This document shows positions 14,776 to 24,402 of a DNA stretch of 28,495 nt, piece by piece. Position numbers and translations under genes: made by a program. Under the pieces are notes generated by a model that was not told where the DNA came from, searched no databases, and saw nothing but the letters and a program-made list of their open reading frames with translations. The DNA comes from a virus, in the IMG/VR virus record IMGVR_UViG_3300033148_002491, positions 1 through 28,495 of that record. The stretch is one strand, 5' to 3'. Numbering within the stretch: position 1 is the first letter of the stretch; every line of letters starts with the position of its first letter.

Positions 14776-16443
14776 ATGGCTGATTCAATAATTTTAAAGA
14801 AATTACCAAACACAAATGTGATTGTCACCAAAGATGGTATTGATATATTGTCCAGGAATCCAGATGCAATTGTTCAAAAGGATGTTTCAAGAAATCAATG
14901 CATTGTGAAACACAAAGACGGCGGTGTGGTTGACACATTTCCGGTTGATGAAGTTGAAAAGGTCATCCGGGCTGATGCCACGGAAATTGCAATTTCTGAT
15001 TTAGACACTTTGTTCACAGAATTGACAGAGAATTTTTTTTTTAAGTTAAGTCCCAAAAATGCAAATCACAGTCACCTTGGAAACTTTGATGACTATGATG
15101 ATTTAACAACGCAATACCCAACTGCAACACTTGGTGATCAAGCATATGTTTTGAATAGTCAAGGAACATCATGGTTGCCTGGTGGTTTGGGGGGGACTTT
15201 TTATTCAAAAGGAATTTATGTTTGGACCGGGGTTTTATGGGATTCAAATCTGGATGATATTTCTGCAGCTTTACAAGATACAATTCCCGTTGAAGATACT
15301 GTTGATCCAACATCAAATGATGATTCAACACAGGGGTATAAAAACGGCAAACATTGGATAAACACCACATCAAAAGAAAGTTTTTATCTTGTTGATAACA
15401 CAGCGGGATCTGCAATTTGGACAAATTCAGCGGTTGATGTTGAAAACCTTCCAATTATTGATTTAACATCTACAGATAATACTTCAACCATTATACAAAG
15501 CACGCCAACAATTTTGAATTGGGATGTTGAAACAGAAAAAGATTCTCCTTTTTCTCATAGCAATACGGTAAACAATAGCAGAATTGTAATTGATGAAGAT
15601 GGTACCTATCAAATTAATGCAAACATCCGTACAACATCAGCAGAGCAAAGGACGCAATTTGTCATAAAAATATTAATAGACGGAGTTGTTCAGTCACAGC
15701 CTTATGGAAGTGCGTATATAAGAAACGCGGGTGCATCCAGTGATTTTTGGACATGTACAGCAACACCATCACCTTTGAAATTGAATTCTGGTCAATATGT
15801 AGAAATTCAAATTCAAATTGAAAGTCAAATAACAAGTGCAGCAACTGGAACATTCCAGGGTTCAGATTCTAGTTTTTCAATAATATCATTAAGTGGGGCA
15901 AAAGGGGAAAAAGGTGACACTGGTTCTGGATCTAATATCATAATTCAAGAAAATGATTCTACTGTTGGAACCGTTGTTGATACTTTGAATTTTGAAGGCG
16001 GGTCAAGCGTTGTTGATGAAGGTAGTGGAAAGGCAACGGTGATTTCAGAAAAATACTATCATGAACGAGATACGAACACAGGCGGGGGGACTGTTGATGC
16101 AGCATTTGACAGTCTGATTGAATGCGTTCCAACTTCAGGAACATTGGAAGTTGAAGTTCCTGAAGATGGTGTGTATATAATAGGGGGGAAAGTAGATATT
16201 GGAACAGACTTAAACAAAGACAATGGTGCCATCCAATTAATGTATGGTATTGATGGGACAATGGGGCCATTATCTGATGCAATATTGAACCAACACGCAA
16301 AAAAGAATAAAAGCAACGGGATCCAGGGCACGTGGGGAAATGTTTCTTTGAATTCTGGTGAAACAATTACTTTATTTTTGAGCACTTTGGATGATTCTGC
16401 TACATGGTTGAATGGTGATATTTGGATTGCAACATGGAAATAA
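14776..16443 (+). CDS. fibre protein with two C1q-like domains and a collagen-like link
   Basis: A 555-residue structural protein. The N-terminal 90 residues (KLPNTNVIVTKDGIDILSRN onward) look like a virion-anchoring part with short beta strands. A jelly-roll-like region (about 235-372) has C1q-type pattern: DGTYQINANIRTT, long strands, then LKLNSGQYVEIQIQIES and FQGSDSSFSIISLSG at its end. A short collagen-like stretch GAKGEKGDTGSG (about 374-386) follows, and a second C1q-like domain (about 425-555) repeats the pattern with EDGVYIIGGKVDI and VSLNSGETITLFL. Such trimeric jelly rolls bind surface sugars or proteins, so this is a probable receptor-binding or decoration fibre. Its location before the sheath gene is unusual for a tail fibre. 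Confidence 0.7.
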   Translation: MADSIILKKLPNTNVIVTKDGIDILSRNPDAIVQKDVSRNQCIVKHKDGGVVDTFPVDEVEKVIRADATEIAISDLDTLFTELTENFFFKLSPKNANHSHLGNFDDYDDLTTQYPTATLGDQAYVLNSQGTSWLPGGLGGTFYSKGIYVWTGVLWDSNLDDISAALQDTIPVEDTVDPTSNDDSTQGYKNGKHWINTTSKESFYLVDNTAGSAIWTNSAVDVENLPIIDLTSTDNTSTIIQSTPTILNWDVETEKDSPFSHSNTVNNSRIVIDEDGTYQINANIRTTSAEQRTQFVIKILIDGVVQSQPYGSAYIRNAGASSDFWTCTATPSPLKLNSGQYVEIQIQIESQITSAATGTFQGSDSSFSIISLSGAKGEKGDTGSGSNIIIQENDSTVGTVVDTLNFEGGSSVVDEGSGKATVISEKYYHERDTNTGGGTVDAAFDSLIECVPTSGTLEVEVPEDGVYIIGGKVDIGTDLNKDNGAIQLMYGIDGTMGPLSDAILNQHAKKNKSNGIQGTWGNVSLNSGETITLFLSTLDDSATWLNGDIWIATWK

Positions 16444-16781
16444 ATGCCTGTATTAATTGCAAATCAAATTGCTGCAAGTTGGAAATTGATCTGACTAAAA
16501 AGGAATTTTTCAATTTAAATAAATTGGGTTTTGGGGGGAATTTGAAAAAAAGATCAACTATTTTTGTTGATCAATATCCTAATTATGCCAACAGGATCTC
16601 ATTTTTGGATAAAATGTACGAAGAAAATCATGCTATTATTTTAAAAAATCAACAAGGATTTTGCCAGTTGCTTAACATGGAAACTAGATTGTGTTCTATT
16701 TATAATGATAGGCCAGAAGTTTGCAAGGTTTATGAAGTTGACGGTGTACGCTGTAAAAAAATAAAAACATGTATAAATTAG
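16434..16781 (+). CDS. YkgJ-like cysteine-cluster metal-binding protein
   Basis: A 115-residue protein with the YkgJ-family (zinc- or iron-chelating) layout. CINCKSNCC (Cys 6, 9, 13, 14) opens the chain, then GFCQLL (Cys77), and CSIYNDRPEVCKVYEVDG (Cys87 and Cys97), ending with Cys107 and Cys113. The family signature is C-x2-C-x2/3-CC plus C-x-I-Y-x-x-R-P-x-x-C, and all parts are present. The biochemical role of the family is poorly known and it is not a standard virion component. It starts at an ATG inside the last codons of the fibre gene and overlaps the next gene by 13 bases. It is strikingly AT-rich relative to its structural neighbours. Confidence 0.75.
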   Translation: MEINACINCKSNCCKLEIDLTKKEFFNLNKLGFGGNLKKRSTIFVDQYPNYANRISFLDKMYEENHAIILKNQQGFCQLLNMETRLCSIYNDRPEVCKVYEVDGVRCKKIKTCIN

Positions 16782-17284
16782 AGATTTTAGAAATAAATGA
16801 ACAGGCTGATCCTAAGTTTTTTTTCCATTGGTTAAAAACAAATTATAAGCCCAATTATATTGGTGGCGCAATGGGTGCAAAAATTGTTTTGAATTTCATG
16901 AATCAACCATCAGCAGAAATTCAAAATGATATAGTTTCATTTTATGAAACGCTCAATTCTGATGATATTTTGGAAGATTACGAAATAATAAAGGAATTTG
17001 AACAGATGAAAGCAGATGGCCAAAATTATTTTTTTGAAGCAAAAGCAAAATATTTTGGTGTAAGATACAAGGATGGAATCCTTTCTGATTCAAATATTAA
17101 TTATTGTTATAATCGATTGGAAAAAGTTGAAAGCAGGTTGAATAATGGTGATTGGAAGCCTGCGTTGTATTATTTAGAACATGAAATTGGCACTGTCACC
17201 CAATTAGATATTGACAACGGATATAGTCAAGAAATTCATGACTATATTGTTCAGGATATGTATAATTATATAAACAATTTGTAA
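16769..17284 (+). CDS. hypothetical protein in accessory cassette
   Basis: A 171-residue, acidic, aromatic-rich, mostly helical protein that I do not recognise. It has a WLKTNYKPNYIGGAMGAKI region near residues 21-40, acidic helices (DDILEDYEIIKEFEQMKADG, about 70-89), and a C-terminal helix rich in Tyr (IVQDMYNYINNL). No signal peptide, membrane span or catalytic motif is evident. The start lies inside the YkgJ-like gene, so the two should be made together and may act together. The next small gene begins six bases after its stop. Confidence 0.6.
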   Translation: MYKLEILEINEQADPKFFFHWLKTNYKPNYIGGAMGAKIVLNFMNQPSAEIQNDIVSFYETLNSDDILEDYEIIKEFEQMKADGQNYFFEAKAKYFGVRYKDGILSDSNINYCYNRLEKVESRLNNGDWKPALYYLEHEIGTVTQLDIDNGYSQEIHDYIVQDMYNYINNL

Positions 17285-17290
17285 TAAATT

Positions 17291-17467
17291 ATGATAAAAA
17301 AAGAAAAAGAAAGTGGATCAATAATAAAAGGACTTTCTGCAATTAAAAAAAAGGAAGAAAATAATTCTGATACCAAAAAAAAAGAAAGGGATTCTGAAAT
17401 AAAAAGAAAGGTGGATAAAAATGGCAAACCGAAAAGGAGACCAGGAAGAAGAAGGGGAAAGGGGTGA
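17291..17467 (+). CDS. 58-residue Lys/Arg-rich protein
   Basis: A short, highly charged protein. The first half alternates Lys and Glu, and the end is an Arg/Gly tail (KPKRRPGRRRGKG) suited to nucleic-acid or acidic-membrane binding. It begins six bases after the preceding stop and its TGA overlaps the GTG start of the next gene (GTGA), so it is probably coupled to the membrane protein. It resembles in character, though not clearly in sequence, the 37-residue basic protein at 5906. No known function. Confidence 0.5.
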   Translation: MIKKEKESGSIIKGLSAIKKKEENNSDTKKKERDSEIKRKVDKNGKPKRRPGRRRGKG

Positions 17468-18183
17468 AAAAAATAATCAAAATAATAGATGAAAATTCAG
17501 TTATTATATATGCATCTTTTATTTTTTTAATAAGAAGTATATGTTTATTTATAGATAATAGCCAAGAACAAATTTTGTCAAATGACATGTATGTTCCTGC
17601 ATTATCTGATTACATTTATTATATATCAGACGCATTTTTGATGGCTTTTATAGGGGTTTTTCTTTACTCCAAGTCAATAAAAAAAATAGCAAGTTTATTT
17701 TCCTTATTGTATATAATTTTTTTATCAACATGCCAAATAATTGATGAAATTTTTTGCATGATAAATTTTCCTTTTGACAAAAATTGGATTGTATATATGC
17801 CTTTTTTAATCAAATTATCTTTATTTATGGAAATATATGTATCAATATTTAAAAAAAGATATGATTGGGAAATGCTAAAATCTGCTGATTATGATCCTGG
17901 AAAAGTTCAAGCAATTTATTCCAAACCTGAAAAAGTATTGCAATTACTTGGTGCCGTTTTTTCTTTCAGCCCAAAATGTTCAGTCAGATACACTTTTGCA
18001 GGAAAAACAATTCGGTTCAAAAAAAATACATCACTACCTGTGTTGGAAGATTTGGTTTTGAAAAAAGGTGAAATAATTGAAAACACTGTTTTTTCCGGTG
18101 ACCATTTTTTTGAAAGATGGGAGAAAATCAAGGATAAAAAATATAATATTCTCAAGTTTAATTGTAGAAGGTTATTGAAATAA
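17464..18183 (+). CDS. membrane protein with possible papain-like C-terminal domain
   Basis: A 239-residue protein starting at GTG. Four hydrophobic segments (about residues 12-30, 48-68, 75-95 and 108-129) make an N-terminal membrane part. After KKRYDWEML a soluble C-terminal domain begins, with SVRYTFAGKTIRF (173-185), LPVLEDLVL (191-199) and the ending YNILKFNCRRLL, where Cys234 sits in an N-C motif as in circularly permuted NlpC/P60 and LRAT-like folds. A His at the usual N-terminal position of that fold is not obvious; the only nearby His is 214. The enzyme idea is therefore tentative. It could act at the host membrane, for example in exclusion or lysis. Confidence 0.55.
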   Translation: MKKIIKIIDENSVIIYASFIFLIRSICLFIDNSQEQILSNDMYVPALSDYIYYISDAFLMAFIGVFLYSKSIKKIASLFSLLYIIFLSTCQIIDEIFCMINFPFDKNWIVYMPFLIKLSLFMEIYVSIFKKRYDWEMLKSADYDPGKVQAIYSKPEKVLQLLGAVFSFSPKCSVRYTFAGKTIRFKKNTSLPVLEDLVLKKGEIIENTVFSGDHFFERWEKIKDKKYNILKFNCRRLLK

Positions 18184-18268: not shown

Positions 18269-19798
18269 ATGACATTAAGTACAGCAATTGACATTGATGT
18301 TGTCAGCAGGATAATTGGCTATGAATTGAAAAAAGGTGATTTTTCAACAGTTTCACCCAATCTTCCGCAAAGGATCGCATTGTTAGGTGAAGCAAACACA
18401 GCAAATCAAGGTGCATCAATCACTGATCCACTTGAAAATCCAACACTTCAGGATGTTGGCGTGAAATATGGATATGGATCACCAGTTTACAACATGTATA
18501 GGATATTAAAACCATTGCAAGGTGGCGGTGTTGGTTCGGTTCCTGTTGTAGTATATGCACAAGACGCTGCAGGCGGTTCTGTTGCATCTGTTTTGCAAAT
18601 CACACCAACTGGAACGGCAACAGGAAATGCAACACACACATTGGTGATAAATGGAAGGAGATCAATTGATGGTGGCCGTTATGACATTACTGTTGTGACT
18701 GGTGACACACCAACAACCATCACTGCAAAAATCATTGATACAATCAATGGTGTTTTGGCTGCACCTGTTATTGCATCAGATGCAACAGCAAAGGTGGATT
18801 GCACTGCCAAATGGACTGGATTAACATCTGAAGGAATTAGTATTGAAGTTGACACAAATGATGCTGCAGTTGGTATGGCATATGGTGTTGCATCAACTGC
18901 ATCTGGTGCAGGAACACCAAGCGTGACTGCATCATTAAACATGTTCAATAATGAATGGAACACTTTTGTGTGTAATCCTTACACATTAGTATCAACTTTT
19001 GTTGAATTAGAAGATTTCAACGGGGTTCCAGATCAAACAAATCCTACAGGAAGATATGATGGAAAAATATTCAAACCGTTCATTGCTGTTTATGGTGATT
19101 TATCAGAAGATCCATCAACACTGACTGATGTTGCTGCAAGAAAATCACAGGTGACAAATTCGTGTGCACCTGCACCAAATTCACCAGGACTAGAAATGGA
19201 AGCAGCTGCAAACATGGTGGTTAAGGCTGCAACGGTAGCCAATAACACACCACATTTGGATGTTAATGCACATTTTTATTCTGATATGCCTGTTCCATCT
19301 GATGGTGACATTGGTCCAATGTCAACGCATTCACAAAGGGATATATTGGTAAAAAAGGGAAGTTCAACAGTTGATTTGGTTTCAGGTAGGTATCAAATAC
19401 AAGATTTGGTGACAACATATCATCCAGATGGTGAAGTTCCACCAGCATACAGATATGTAAGAAACTTAAACAATATTGATTTTAACATTAGGTATTCTTA
19501 TTTCTTACAAGAACAAATTCATGTTGTTGATCATGCAATTGCAGCTGATGATGATGTTGTCAGCGCGTCAAATGTGATCAAGCCAAAGCAATGGAAAGCA
19601 TTGGTTGATGATTTGTCAACACAACTTGGAAGGCGTGCATTGATTTCTGATGTTCCTTTCATGCAAGCATCCATTGTGACAGAATTGAATGCTACAAATC
19701 CGGACCGGCTTGACACTACTTTTTCATACAAAAGATCTGGAACAGTGAGAATTGCAAGCACAACTGTGACGGCTGGATTTAATTTTGGTCAGGCTTAA
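18269..19798 (+). CDS. contractile tail sheath protein (Mu gpL-like)
   Basis: A 509-residue sheath subunit whose rings contract to drive the tube through the host envelope. The N-terminal pattern VSRIIGYELKKGDFSTVSPN, then LPQRIALLGEAN, fits Mu gpL-type sheaths. The middle (about 105-225) is a Gly/Ala/Thr-rich beta domain, and PLQGGGVGSVPVVVYAQ is the conserved strand before it. The C-terminal third has the sheath helices (VIKPKQWKALVDDLSTQLGR) and ends with VTAGFNFGQA. Mu gpL is about 495 residues. It is followed by the tube gene, the usual order for this tail class. Confidence 0.88.
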   Translation: MTLSTAIDIDVVSRIIGYELKKGDFSTVSPNLPQRIALLGEANTANQGASITDPLENPTLQDVGVKYGYGSPVYNMYRILKPLQGGGVGSVPVVVYAQDAAGGSVASVLQITPTGTATGNATHTLVINGRRSIDGGRYDITVVTGDTPTTITAKIIDTINGVLAAPVIASDATAKVDCTAKWTGLTSEGISIEVDTNDAAVGMAYGVASTASGAGTPSVTASLNMFNNEWNTFVCNPYTLVSTFVELEDFNGVPDQTNPTGRYDGKIFKPFIAVYGDLSEDPSTLTDVAARKSQVTNSCAPAPNSPGLEMEAAANMVVKAATVANNTPHLDVNAHFYSDMPVPSDGDIGPMSTHSQRDILVKKGSSTVDLVSGRYQIQDLVTTYHPDGEVPPAYRYVRNLNNIDFNIRYSYFLQEQIHVVDHAIAADDDVVSASNVIKPKQWKALVDDLSTQLGRRALISDVPFMQASIVTELNATNPDRLDTTFSYKRSGTVRIASTTVTAGFNFGQA

Positions 19799-19824: not shown

Positions 19825-20238
19825 ATGGCAAATACAGGTGGCGATATGGTTGAAGTGACATTCAACCATCCAACAAAAGGAACTGGTGTTTTCTTTGTGA
19901 AATCTGCAGAAGATCATGAAAGTGATTTGGGCGGTTACCGTTCAGAAGATGATGACAACATGGTTGACAGCGGTGGTGAAATGATTGACATCATGAAAAG
20001 GGTTCGATGGAAACAATCATTTGTTGCATCATGGGACGCAAACAACCGTGAAGATTTGGAACTTGCTGTTTCACTCTCTTCAGATCCTGAACAGGGTGAT
20101 TGGACATTTTCATTCATTAATGGAACGGTCTACAAAGGAAAAGGAAAACCGGTTGGTGATCTTAAAGGTGCAGGAAGTGCAGCAACATTTCCTTTGGTTA
20201 TTGCCGGGGGTGGTGAACTAAAGAAAATTAGTGGTTAA
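19825..20238 (+). CDS. tail tube protein
   Basis: A 137-residue beta-rich protein right after the sheath gene. It opens with MVEVTFNHPTKGTGVFFVKS, has the polar GGYRSEDDDNMVDSGGEMID loop, and continues with WKQSFVASWDANNREDLEL and WTFSFINGTVYKGKGKPVGD. This last stretch matches the strand-turn-strand G-x-(V/P)-x-G-D pattern of tube proteins, which form the inner tail channel. Size is near Mu gpM (118). The call rests on this pattern and the fixed sheath-tube order. Confidence 0.8.
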   Translation: MANTGGDMVEVTFNHPTKGTGVFFVKSAEDHESDLGGYRSEDDDNMVDSGGEMIDIMKRVRWKQSFVASWDANNREDLELAVSLSSDPEQGDWTFSFINGTVYKGKGKPVGDLKGAGSAATFPLVIAGGGELKKISG

Positions 20239-20264: not shown

Positions 20265-20672
20265 ATGGGAAAAGTAACACGTGAAATTGCAGAAACAGAG
20301 GTTTTGAAATGGTTGGACTTCAAAAAAGTGGACCAGGAAAAACGATCAGAACAGGAATCTTCAATAAAAACAATGCAAAATGCAATTTTTGAAGGTCATT
20401 TGGTGCTGGATGATAAATTGAATTTTATATACACATTGAAATGGCCACTTGAAGATTCTGAAGGGAAAGTGATGTTGGAAAAATTGACATTCAAACCAAG
20501 AATGAAAACATCAGAGGCTGATTCAAGGTTGAAGCACCTGAAAGATCCATCAAGTTTTGAAACAATTCGTTGTTTCACAGCTGCATTAACATCTGAAAGC
20601 ATGGGATTGCTGAAAGATCTGGATTCTGAAGATACAAGGGTTTCAAATGCAATTTCGGCTTTTTTCCTGTAG
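20265..20672 (+). CDS. tail assembly chaperone (upstream frame)
   Basis: A 135-residue, charged, mostly helical protein between the tube and tape-measure genes, the standard position of tail assembly chaperones. It has an N-terminal helix (EIAETEVLKWLDFKKVDQEK), a strand region (NFIYTLKWPLEDSEGK), and conserved-looking KPRMKTSEADSRL near residues 86-98. It binds and organises the tape measure protein during tail building in related phages. The 3' end carries the slippery heptamer TTTTTTC (20660-20666), so some ribosomes should shift to -1 and make a 191-residue fusion. Confidence 0.75.
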   Translation: MGKVTREIAETEVLKWLDFKKVDQEKRSEQESSIKTMQNAIFEGHLVLDDKLNFIYTLKWPLEDSEGKVMLEKLTFKPRMKTSEADSRLKHLKDPSSFETIRCFTAALTSESMGLLKDLDSEDTRVSNAISAFFL

Positions 20673-20717
20673 ATAGGCGTTCTTTGACTAACATGATAAA
20701 AAGTGTTGTCAGAGAAC
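20660..20717 (+). promoter_or_regulatory. programmed -1 ribosomal frameshift signal
   Basis: The heptamer TTTTTTC (20660-20666) is in the correct register (T TTT TTC) six bases ahead of the TAG stop of the upstream frame. Twelve bases further on, GTTCTTTGAC (20679-20688) can pair with GTCAGAGAAC (20708-20717), ten pairs including one G-U, a downstream stem that would pause the ribosome. The -1 frame stays open to 20839. Such shifts are known between the tail chaperone genes of P2, Mu and lambda. Confidence 0.8.
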
Positions 20718-20839
20718 ATCATTGGATTCCAAATGTTGTTGATGAACTTTATGTTGACAAAATTGATCATCATGGATTGGAATTTTGGTACAATGATATT
20801 GATGAAGTTCAGAAAAAATTGAAGGAAAAAACAAAATGA
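20666..20839 (+). CDS. tail assembly chaperone, -1 frameshift extension (E'/GpE-like)
   Basis: Read after a -1 slip at 20660-20666, this 57-residue extension begins PVDRRSLTNMIKSVV, continues REHHWIPNVVDELYVDKIDH and ends in a charged helix (DEVQKKLKEKTK). It makes a 191-residue fusion with the upstream chaperone. The short H-W-x-P and Glu-rich pattern resembles the small GpE-type second chaperones of P2-like phages, which contact the tape measure. An ATG at 20694 could also start it alone, but it lacks a clear initiation site. Its stop overlaps the tape measure start (ATGA). Confidence 0.75.
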   Translation, partial: PVDRRSLTNMIKSVVREHHWIPNVVDELYVDKIDHHGLEFWYNDIDEVQKKLKEKTK

Positions 20840-22746
20840 GTGCCTTAACAATTCCGAGTGTATTTACAGCCGTTGATAAAATAACTGCCCCAGTTAATAA
20901 GATGGCCAAATCCGTGAAGGGATTCACGGATACTTCTGCAGCTGGTGCATCTAGGTTGAATAGGCGTTTAAGTAGCATCAGCAGCGGCGCGAAAAAAACA
21001 GCACAGGTTTCTGCTGGCATTGGTTTTGCTATCGCTGCACCTTTGGGAATTGCAACAAAATCTGCAATGGATTTTGAACGTCAAATGTCAAATGTTTCAA
21101 CACTAATTGACACGAATAAGGAAAGCATGTCTGATATGAGTCAGGAAGTTTTGAAAATGTCAACAAAACTTCCTGTTGCTCTGGATGATTTAACTGTTTC
21201 GCTTTTTGACATACGTTCTGCAGGTATTCCAGCCAATAAAGCAATGGAAACATTGTCTGCATCAGCAAAATTGGGTGTGGCTGGTATAGGTTCAACGGCT
21301 GAAGCCACAAACATCATGACTTCAGCAATAAATGCATTTGCATCAGAAGGGTTGTCAGCTGCAGAAATACAGGATATTTTATTTAAAACATCAAAGGCTG
21401 GAAAAACAACTATTGGTGCATTGGCGCAAGCATTTGGATCAACCGCGCCAATCATTCAATCAGCTGGTGTGAAATTGGCAGATTTCCAAGCTGCAACTGC
21501 AGCCCTTACAACAGTTGGAACGCCAGCTGCGCAGGCACAAACACAATTAAGGGCTGCAGTTGTGGCATTGCAGAAACCAACCAAGGACATGGAAAAGATT
21601 TTCAAATCCCTTGGGGTTACTTCTGAAAAAGAATTGATTCAAAAATTTGGTGGATTGGGTGGTGCCTTTGTAGAGGTAAACAAAAAAGGGAAAGAACTTG
21701 GTTTAAATCTGGGGAAAGTTTGGAGTTCAACGGAAGCTGGTGCAGCGGTCACATCATTGACAGGTTCAACACAAGAAGCTTATGTGAACACATTGAAAGA
21801 TATGACAACAGGTGCAAATGCAGTTGAAGAGGCTTTCAATAAACAAAACAAAACAGGTGCTGCAGCGGCTCAATTGGCAGAAAACAACATGAAAGCGTTG
21901 ACCATCACCATTGGAACAACTTTGATCCCAATGGTGAACAAGGCGGTCAAGAAAATAATGCCTTTGGTTGAAAGTTTTATGGAGTGGGCCAAAAATAATC
22001 CTAAATTATTAGCAACAATTGTTTCTATTACTGCAGCAATAGGAGCGTTAGCCTTTGTTGTTTCGGGTGTGGCAACAGTTGTTTCTATTGTCACGGGTGT
22101 GATGGCCACATATAGCTTGGTTACTAAAGCAGTTACTGCAGCGACATGGCTATGGACCTCAGCACAAACAGCGCTGACATTTATAATGAATTTGAATCCT
22201 ATTAGTTTGATAATCATTGGAATAATTGCCTTGATTGCTGTTATTACTACAATTATTGTAAAATACAATGAATGGGGTGCTGCATTGACTTTTGTTTTGG
22301 GGCCATTAGGGATGATAATAAATTTAATAATGTCATTCAGAAGGAATTGGGACATGGTTGTTCAGTCATTTAAGGAGGGCGGTATTTTGTCAGGAATGAA
22401 GGCAATTGGAAAAGTTTTGATTGATTCATTATTGATGCCGCTGCAGCAATTATTGGAAATTGTTGGAAGCATACCTGGAATGGACATTGCAACCAAAGGT
22501 GCTGAAGCAATTCAAAGGATGCGTGATGATTTAGGATTGGACGTGGATGCAACAGGTGCTGGTGGTGAAAAAGAAGCACTGAGTGTCAGACAAGCAGAAC
22601 AGGACGGTTTGACAAGCAGGTTGGAAAAAATTACACAAACGAATGTTGGAATAACTGTGAAAGATCCAAATGACAGAACTGATGTTGATGTCAGCGGTGA
22701 ACCAATTCCAGTGATGACAACATCAACAATGGGAATTGCACAATGA
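20836..22746 (+). CDS. tail tape measure protein
   Basis: A 636-residue protein that sets tail length and is later ejected with the DNA. The N-terminal third matches the TP901 core type: KSAMDFERQMSNVSTLI, then LPVALDDLTVSLFDIRSAGI and TSKAGKTTIGALAQAFGSTA. Ala/Gly-rich helices with many Thr/Ser follow. Strongly hydrophobic helices occupy about residues 391-478 (TIVSITAAIGALAFVVSGVA and ISLIIIGIIALIAVITTIIV), likely for membrane insertion at injection. It is short for the family, which suggests a short tail (roughly 1.5 angstrom per residue would give about 95 nm at most). It overlaps both neighbours by ATGA. Confidence 0.88.
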   Translation: MSALTIPSVFTAVDKITAPVNKMAKSVKGFTDTSAAGASRLNRRLSSISSGAKKTAQVSAGIGFAIAAPLGIATKSAMDFERQMSNVSTLIDTNKESMSDMSQEVLKMSTKLPVALDDLTVSLFDIRSAGIPANKAMETLSASAKLGVAGIGSTAEATNIMTSAINAFASEGLSAAEIQDILFKTSKAGKTTIGALAQAFGSTAPIIQSAGVKLADFQAATAALTTVGTPAAQAQTQLRAAVVALQKPTKDMEKIFKSLGVTSEKELIQKFGGLGGAFVEVNKKGKELGLNLGKVWSSTEAGAAVTSLTGSTQEAYVNTLKDMTTGANAVEEAFNKQNKTGAAAAQLAENNMKALTITIGTTLIPMVNKAVKKIMPLVESFMEWAKNNPKLLATIVSITAAIGALAFVVSGVATVVSIVTGVMATYSLVTKAVTAATWLWTSAQTALTFIMNLNPISLIIIGIIALIAVITTIIVKYNEWGAALTFVLGPLGMIINLIMSFRRNWDMVVQSFKEGGILSGMKAIGKVLIDSLLMPLQQLLEIVGSIPGMDIATKGAEAIQRMRDDLGLDVDATGAGGEKEALSVRQAEQDGLTSRLEKITQTNVGITVKDPNDRTDVDVSGEPIPVMTTSTMGIAQ

Positions 22747-23220: not shown

Positions 23221-24402
23221 ATGGCTGTACAAATACCAACAATAAATGATTTATACACATCAATTCTGGCAGATTTAAAATCTGAAATAGGAATTACAAA
23301 TGATTTTTTTGGCAAGGTGTTTTTGATTCCACTTGCAATGGTCCAAGCAGCAAAATTAAAACTTTATTATTTGGCAATTGCAAACATCCAACGGAATATA
23401 TTTGTGGATCTAGCTGAACCCATTTCTGTTGGTGGAACGCTTGAACGTTTTGGGTTGGTAAAGTTGGGGCGTTTGCCTTTTACGGCAAAATCTGGAAGTT
23501 ATGATGTAACTGTGACGGGAACGATTGGTGCAGTAATTAAGGCCAACACAACATTCAAAAGTAATGATTCTTCATTGAATCCTGCAAAACAATTTGTGGT
23601 TGATTCAGATCATACCATGGTGACAACTTCTGACACAATCACAGTGCGTGCATTGGAAGCTGGTTTGGATAGTCAACTTGCAATCAATGATCAAATGACA
23701 TTAACAGCACCCATTCCAAACATTGACAAGGTTGCAACGGTTTCATCTGAGACAATCACACCTTTGGCTGCAGAAGATGTTGAAGATTACAGATCAAAAG
23801 CAATTGAGGCGTATCAATTGGAACCACAAGGTGGTGCCGGTTCTGATTATCGTATTTGGGCTGCTGATGCACAAGGCGTGCAAAAGGTTTATCCATACAC
23901 CAGAAAAGGATACAATAATGAATTGATCATTTATGTTGAAGCAACAATTGCAGATTCAACAGATGGAAAAGGAACACCATCACAAGCAATATTGGATGAT
24001 GTTGAAGAGGTTGTTGAACGGGATCCAGACACAACAAAAGACTTGGATGAACGTGGTCGAAGGCCATTAGGCGTTTTTAATATTGTATTTGATCCAATTA
24101 CAATACTAGAAGTTGATGTGACAATTACAGGATACCAAAGTTTGACACCTGAAATTCAAACAAGTATTCAAAATGCAATTACAGATTTCATTAATAGTGC
24201 CAGACCATTTGTTGCATCTGCTGATGTGTTATCCAATAGAAATGACATAATCAGCGAAAACAAATTGATTTCTGTTGTTCATGAAGCTGTTCCCGGAAGT
24301 GTTTTTGATTCGCTTGGACTGGAAATTGATTCTGTGCCAACAGCAAGTTTGCAATTGATTGATGGGAACATTGGACATTTAAATTCAGTTGTATATGTTT
24401 AA
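23221..24402 (+). CDS. baseplate J-like protein (Mu gp47-like)
   Basis: A 393-residue wedge protein of the baseplate J family. Typical features: an N-terminal helical part (IPTINDLYTSILADLKSEIG) and LAEPISVGGTLERFGLVKLGR (about 61-81), followed by a strand-rich part with a GTIGAVIKANTTFKSND motif, and DYRSKAIEAYQLEPQGGAGS (about 190-209), then YRIWAADAQGVQKVYPY. The last two segments are the best family signature. Length is close to Mu gp47 (360). The C-terminal helices end in LNSVVYV. It overlaps the gp48-like gene by eight bases. Confidence 0.85.
   Translation: MAVQIPTINDLYTSILADLKSEIGITNDFFGKVFLIPLAMVQAAKLKLYYLAIANIQRNIFVDLAEPISVGGTLERFGLVKLGRLPFTAKSGSYDVTVTGTIGAVIKANTTFKSNDSSLNPAKQFVVDSDHTMVTTSDTITVRALEAGLDSQLAINDQMTLTAPIPNIDKVATVSSETITPLAAEDVEDYRSKAIEAYQLEPQGGAGSDYRIWAADAQGVQKVYPYTRKGYNNELIIYVEATIADSTDGKGTPSQAILDDVEEVVERDPDTTKDLDERGRRPLGVFNIVFDPITILEVDVTITGYQSLTPEIQTSIQNAITDFINSARPFVASADVLSNRNDIISENKLISVVHEAVPGSVFDSLGLEIDSVPTASLQLIDGNIGHLNSVVYV

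Follow-up and report, generated by a model that had tools for sequence, protein, structure and literature searches.

Frameshifting in a tail assembly chaperone gene is itself known from other phages. The slip site and extension domain of lambda gpG/gpGT differ from those of the locus described here. What lambda shares with this locus is the principle, minority fusion chaperones encoded between the tail tube and tape measure genes (PMC5009743). The original prediction had placed P2 E/E', Mu 41/42 and lambda G/GT together as users of the same trick at the same locus. That holds for P2 and, as a principle, for lambda, but not for Mu, which is reported to shift by -2 (PMC5009743), unlike the predicted -1 of the present locus, and whose gene 42 is the tape measure and not a second chaperone. 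Here we describe a contractile-tailed phage, probably of Bacteroidota, that very probably produces its tail assembly chaperone in two forms by a P2-type programmed -1 ribosomal frameshift. In this phage a selected hairpin lies within the extension, and in relatives the extension hairpin is often terminator-like.

The window, by which we mean the whole 28,495-base stretch of the virus record that was analysed (GC 36%), bears a contractile-tail operon in which the following features were located:

18269-19798, + strand: tail sheath gene (phrog_165 tail sheath, E 3.8e-84)
19825-20238, + strand: tail tube gene (phrog_4699 tail tube protein, E 3.9e-34)
20265-20672, + strand: tail assembly chaperone gene, 0-frame product of 135 aa (phrog_4648 end to end, E 2.1e-14)
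20660-20666, + strand: slippery heptamer T TTT TTC, in phase (read from the sequence; T run kept in relatives)
20670-20672, + strand: 0-frame stop TAG (read from the sequence)
20666-20839, + strand: -1 extension, 57 codons plus TGA (phrog_5697, E 1.5e-14; P2 E' profile comparison)
20676-20720, + strand: RNA hairpin H1 (folding, codon randomisation, stems in the clade, modest covariation)
20836-22746, + strand: tape measure gene (PF10145, E 2.1e-28; phrog_28, E 7.2e-58)
23221-24402: baseplate J gene, part of the contractile-tail operon

The chaperone and extension lie between the tail tube and tape measure genes, an order common to the related locus L013 and the isolated phages phiSM and FCL-2 (L-numbers are our labels for related loci). 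The host is likely a member of the Bacteroidota, given that few genes of the window have Shine-Dalgarno-like leaders (4/26), that L013 sits in a Bacteroidetes genome bin, and that the chaperone of L079 has homologues in Cellulophaga and Flavobacterium phages. Three + strand ORFs to which no function could be assigned lie amid the tail genes at 16422-18183; they hold several T_TTT_TT strings in phase and may have been inserted there.

The 3' end of the chaperone ORF reads GCT TTT TTC CTG TAG. The heptamer T TTT TTC is in register, as had been noted, but it ends 3 nt before the TAG and does not lie six bases from the stop, as first described. The -1 frame is indeed open for 57 further codons (20666-20836), and its TGA at 20837-20839 overlaps the tape-measure ATG (20836) as ATGA. 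Upstream, the -1 ORF is open from 20630, giving a predicted fusion of 191 aa. In phase, T_TTT_TT is present 11 times among the window's genes (8,467 codons), and only here does it lie within 10 nt of a stop. Inspection by eye showed no Shine-Dalgarno-like stimulator near the slip site. The -2 frame is shut within 2 codons of the stop (read in L002, which is identical to the window here), and a Mu-type -2 cassette was rejected for the window on this ground.

We infer the slip, its efficiency and the roles of the two products from this arrangement. Most ribosomes would stop at the TAG at 20670 and release the 135-aa chaperone; a minority would shift by one base into the -1 frame on T TTT TTC, yielding the 191-aa fusion, in which the chaperone is joined to a 57-residue domain resembling P2 E'. 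If the products act as lambda G and GT do, the tape measure protein would be coated by the short form, and tail tube subunits would be recruited by the fusion.

Relatives were collected by searching viral contigs and genomes, and the matches listed comprise 96 distinct junctions, a sample of the family whose related members are not independent of one another. Both elements of the predicted slip, the heptamer and the open -1 frame, recur among them. The extension lies in -1 and overlaps the 0-frame end in 94 of the 96 junctions, and 79/96 keep an in-phase T_TTT_TT beside the 0-frame stop; elsewhere in the relatives' 0-frame ORFs, over 10,848 codon positions, that in-phase string does not occur. 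By slip site, the 96 divide into 66 with T TTT TT[TC], 13 with T TTT TT[GA], 4 with [AC] TTT TTC and 13 others; the close relatives L003 (A TTT TTC) and L026 (C TTT TTC) have heptamers that are imperfect for tandem slippage. The two remaining extensions, those of L083 and L091, are in -2/+1, a frame that is shifted and not closed. Their slip site is GTT TTT TCG TAR, and L080 and L087, fellow members of their supported clade, are in -1; the difference may reflect a switch in the direction of frameshifting or an indel introduced into the T run by assembly. L022 and L023, whose two genes at first sight appear separated, have a T8 run and an overlapping -1 ORF with a longer linker. In L077 there is no T run (TAT TTC CTG TAG), yet the strongest hairpin beside a stop is found there (L077:2998-3063, -24.4 kcal/mol, z -8.5).

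The junctions also bear on whether the extension might instead be a separate gene, translated from an internal start (ATG 20693 or a TTG) by re-initiation after the chaperone stop. The window has that in-frame ATG with the conserved domain downstream of it, and the two ORFs overlap as they do in coupled genes. However, in 48/96 relatives the -1 ORF has no ATG upstream of a conserved W motif, which a fusion fits better than separate initiation does. The in-phase T run is kept beside the stop, though re-initiation does not require one, and in the window ATG 20693 falls inside the hairpin. We consider separate initiation very improbable.

Slippage could also be transcriptional, with RNA polymerase realigning on the T run so that the frame is changed in the message and not by the ribosome. 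T8, the commonest run (45/96), is nearly long enough for bacterial polymerase to slip on. In the window the run is only T6, however, and T5 is found in its 84%-identical relative and in others, whereas such slippage has been reported for T>8 (PMC3711429). The phase expected for tandem tRNA slippage is, moreover, observed in 13/21 T6 runs, where 1/3 would be expected, and in 18/18 T7 runs, where 2/3 would be. Polymerase slippage is thus unlikely at the T6 of the window and possible for relatives with T8; as an account of the frameshift we rate it a shade below even separate initiation.

The identities of the two products are consistent with programmed ribosomal frameshifting in a chaperone gene. 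A Foldseek search with a fold model of the chaperone (ORF 20265-20672, pLDDT 95.9) found, among viral models, a 'Tape measure chaperone' at probability 1.0 and a 'Tail assembly chaperone' at 0.99, below three stronger matches that are unnamed; the PDB fold search gave no significant match. PF10109 Phage_TAC_7, described as 'tail assembly chaperone proteins, E, or 41 or 14', was matched by 9/62 family members at E up to 0.1, the best at 1.1e-4, just below the curated cut-off. Against Pfam, the window's own chaperone and extension gave nothing useful, the chaperone having no match. phrog_4648 and phrog_5697 are both annotated 'unknown function', and Rfam returned only one meaningless sub-threshold match.

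The extension encodes a conserved domain, since all 58 aligned members match phrog_5697 and third-position differences predominate in the -1 frame in close pairs (two misaligned pairs ignored). Compared with P2 E' by hhalign, it aligned over the HW.P motif (E 5.1e-5, probability 67%); one of the 58 members matched PF06528 GpE, at 0.019, and the fold search with the extension gave no significant match. Direct profile comparison of the chaperone with P2 gpE, using a shallow 3-sequence P2 profile, detected no similarity. Membership in a P2-type cassette is argued mainly from locus, architecture and the HW.P motif, the chaperone sequence alone being only suggestive.

Immediately 3' of the slip site, in the region encoding SLxNMIKSVVRE, is H1. 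The stem that had been predicted, 20679-20688 with 20708-20717, is exact, with 10 pairs (one G-U), and the structure is longer than was stated. Beyond a bulged T at 20689, 5 more pairs form between 20690-20694 and 20703-20707, for a total of 15, and 2 weak outer pairs (20676-20677/20719-20720) cut the spacer from 12 nt to 9; the MFE is -19.0 kcal/mol. When 2,000 sequences were generated that preserve the amino acids of the extension and the codon usage of the window, only 1-3 were as stable as H1 in windows of 42-54 nt (z -3.6 to -4.1). Wider windows around H1 are less extreme (34-55/2,000 as stable), and among 282 windows sampled in other genes the lowest z, -3.96, is on a par with that of H1.

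Conservation of H1 is lineage-specific. In the tree, the window, L003, L026, L090, L092, L175 and L177 fall into a single group with modest support (91/88), and their stems differ in sequence. The stem is kept with a different sequence within the window's clade but is not family-wide: H1 is confined to some lineages, and many relatives have a terminator-like hairpin further down. Among 16 H1-type sequences, picked partly for having a hairpin, the covariation score was 0.260 compared with 0.200 in shuffles (6/500 as high) and reached at most 0.218 when the structure was slid along the alignment; the number of further pair types in this set was not above shuffles. A simple antidiagonal analysis of covariation was diluted, as bulges shift the register. 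We regard the covariation as modest support for H1.

According to the original prediction, a 12-nt spacer was long enough to suggest that the stem may act through a longer structure or a pseudoknot. A pseudoknot is not required. Stimulators usually lie 5-9 nt from the slip site, but spacers of 12-15 nt are documented for a minority, and of 11-14 nt for arteriviruses and cardioviruses (PMC5009743), so the spacer of H1, though at the long end, is no obstacle, and the outer pairs bring it to 9 nt in any case. We infer that H1, 9-12 nt downstream, stimulates the slip, a role to which we give somewhat better than an even chance.

Hairpins were also sought throughout the extension of each of the 96 junctions, with codon-preserving sequences for comparison. 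In 56-59/96 junctions a hairpin was significantly stable by this standard (p <= 0.05), compared with 4-21% for five stretches of the chaperone and tape-measure genes used as control regions. These hairpins occupy alternative places among relatives. Those downstream of the H1 position, at WxPxxIGxLFF and SLYLDDADFFG, have a T tract on their 3' side. When stems had to reach -12 kcal/mol and tracts to have 6 or more T in 7, 34/96 extensions qualified (for example L043, L044, L053, L013 and L029), as did 0-1 sequences per control region of 84-96 sequences; the mirror-image A tract was found in only 2 extensions, a strong strand asymmetry. The T-tailed hairpins resemble intrinsic terminators, and they lie in an ORF that would be translated by frameshifted ribosomes only. 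In FCL-2 (L193:3094-3136), a textbook terminator, a stem followed by TTTTTT, lies between the extension stop and the tape-measure ATG; as it is <20 nt upstream of that ATG, there is little room for a promoter. No T-tailed hairpin was found in the extension of the window, and H1 was rejected as an intrinsic (Rho-independent) terminator, as CATCATTGG follows its stem and there is no T tract. Some 75 nt into the tape measure gene, at 20910-20931, the window has a perfect 9-bp stem (ATCCGTGAA/TTCACGGAT), also with no T tract.

These elements give weight to the view that the frameshift is real and that H1, instead of promoting the slip, acts in transcription or in the processing of mRNA, through pausing or 3'-end protection. 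Relatives have selected hairpins elsewhere in the extension ORF, 34/96 of them with a T tract, and the isolated phage FCL-2 has its terminator before the tape measure gene. The H1 of the window has no such tract, however; it stands where stimulators act, and few T follow the stem in most significant H1-position hairpins. We hold a non-stimulatory H1 to be a serious but less probable alternative to stimulation. It is compatible with our confidence in the frameshift, as it disputes only the role of the hairpin.

The two hairpin classes are unevenly distributed over slip sites, H1 being commoner at the weaker ones. H1 and T-tailed hairpins number 10 and 3 with non-strong sites and 7 and 31 with strong sites (Fisher p 2.6e-4), for classes that were defined after seeing the data, with the control regions and the strand asymmetry as guards. 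That H1 compensates for weak slip sites is a lead that was not supported, since the tree leaves roughly one independent comparison that is informative.

The terminator-like elements of the relatives are statistically established, and they allow a more speculative reading, which we think rather unlikely, in which translation of the frameshift-only ORF would govern transcription as well, making that ORF an attenuator ahead of the tape measure gene. Most ribosomes would leave at the 0-frame stop, the terminator hairpin in the extension would form, and RNA polymerase would stop; the rare frameshifted ribosome would melt the hairpin and let transcription reach the tape measure gene, tying tape-measure expression to synthesis of the fusion chaperone. 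The H1 of the window, having no T tract, would be a variant lacking intrinsic termination. Such gating by the frameshift is hypothetical, and our literature search of openly accessible papers found no frameshift-coupled attenuator before a tape measure gene.

Programmed -1 frameshifting in this gene would add a large unannotated family (phrog_4648 with phrog_5697) to the phages that use a frameshifted tail chaperone, and the family provides roughly a hundred naturally occurring forms of a single slip site, some accompanied by hairpins and some not. With terminator-like hairpins in a frameshift-only ORF, one may ask how the stoichiometry of the tail is linked to frameshifting and to late transcription. 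The isolated phages phiSM and FCL-2 offer material for this question, in a group of phages that are probably of Bacteroidota. Homologues in isolated phages were reached with the divergent L079 chaperone as query; tblastn of P0001 and of the L013 chaperone against isolated phages gave no matches. The L079 chaperone is homologous, at 38% and 29-30% identity, to those of phiSM (Cellulophaga) and of FCL-2 and VK52 (Flavobacterium). All three phages have the gene order of the window and an open -1 extension, and their slip regions differ from that of the window, reading GTT TTT TAG in phiSM and GTT TTT ATA TAA in FCL-2 and VK52. In phiSM and VK52, the two parts are annotated as separate hypothetical proteins, and in FCL-2 the extension is unannotated; none is annotated as a frameshift.

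Among well-described systems, the order sheath, tube, chaperone, extension, tape measure in the window matches both P2 and Mu, with Mu gene 41 preceded by sheath and tube and followed by the tape measure gene (42). The closest likeness is to E/E+E' of the P2 FETUD operon, which shares with the window the position between tube and tape measure and the -1 direction, with T TTT TTG in the place corresponding to T TTT TTC (PMC3931495). In P2, as here, the -1 ORF reaches back about 40 nt, the extension overlaps the start of the tape measure gene, and it bears an HW.P motif related to that of the window extension. P2 E' also has a stable predicted hairpin about 30 nt after the E stop (L185:2434-2481, -25.2 kcal/mol). 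Unlike P2, the window has its slip site directly before the stop, followed at 9-12 nt by a 15-bp hairpin, and its chaperone differs from P2 gpE in having no profile similarity detectable with three P2 sequences.
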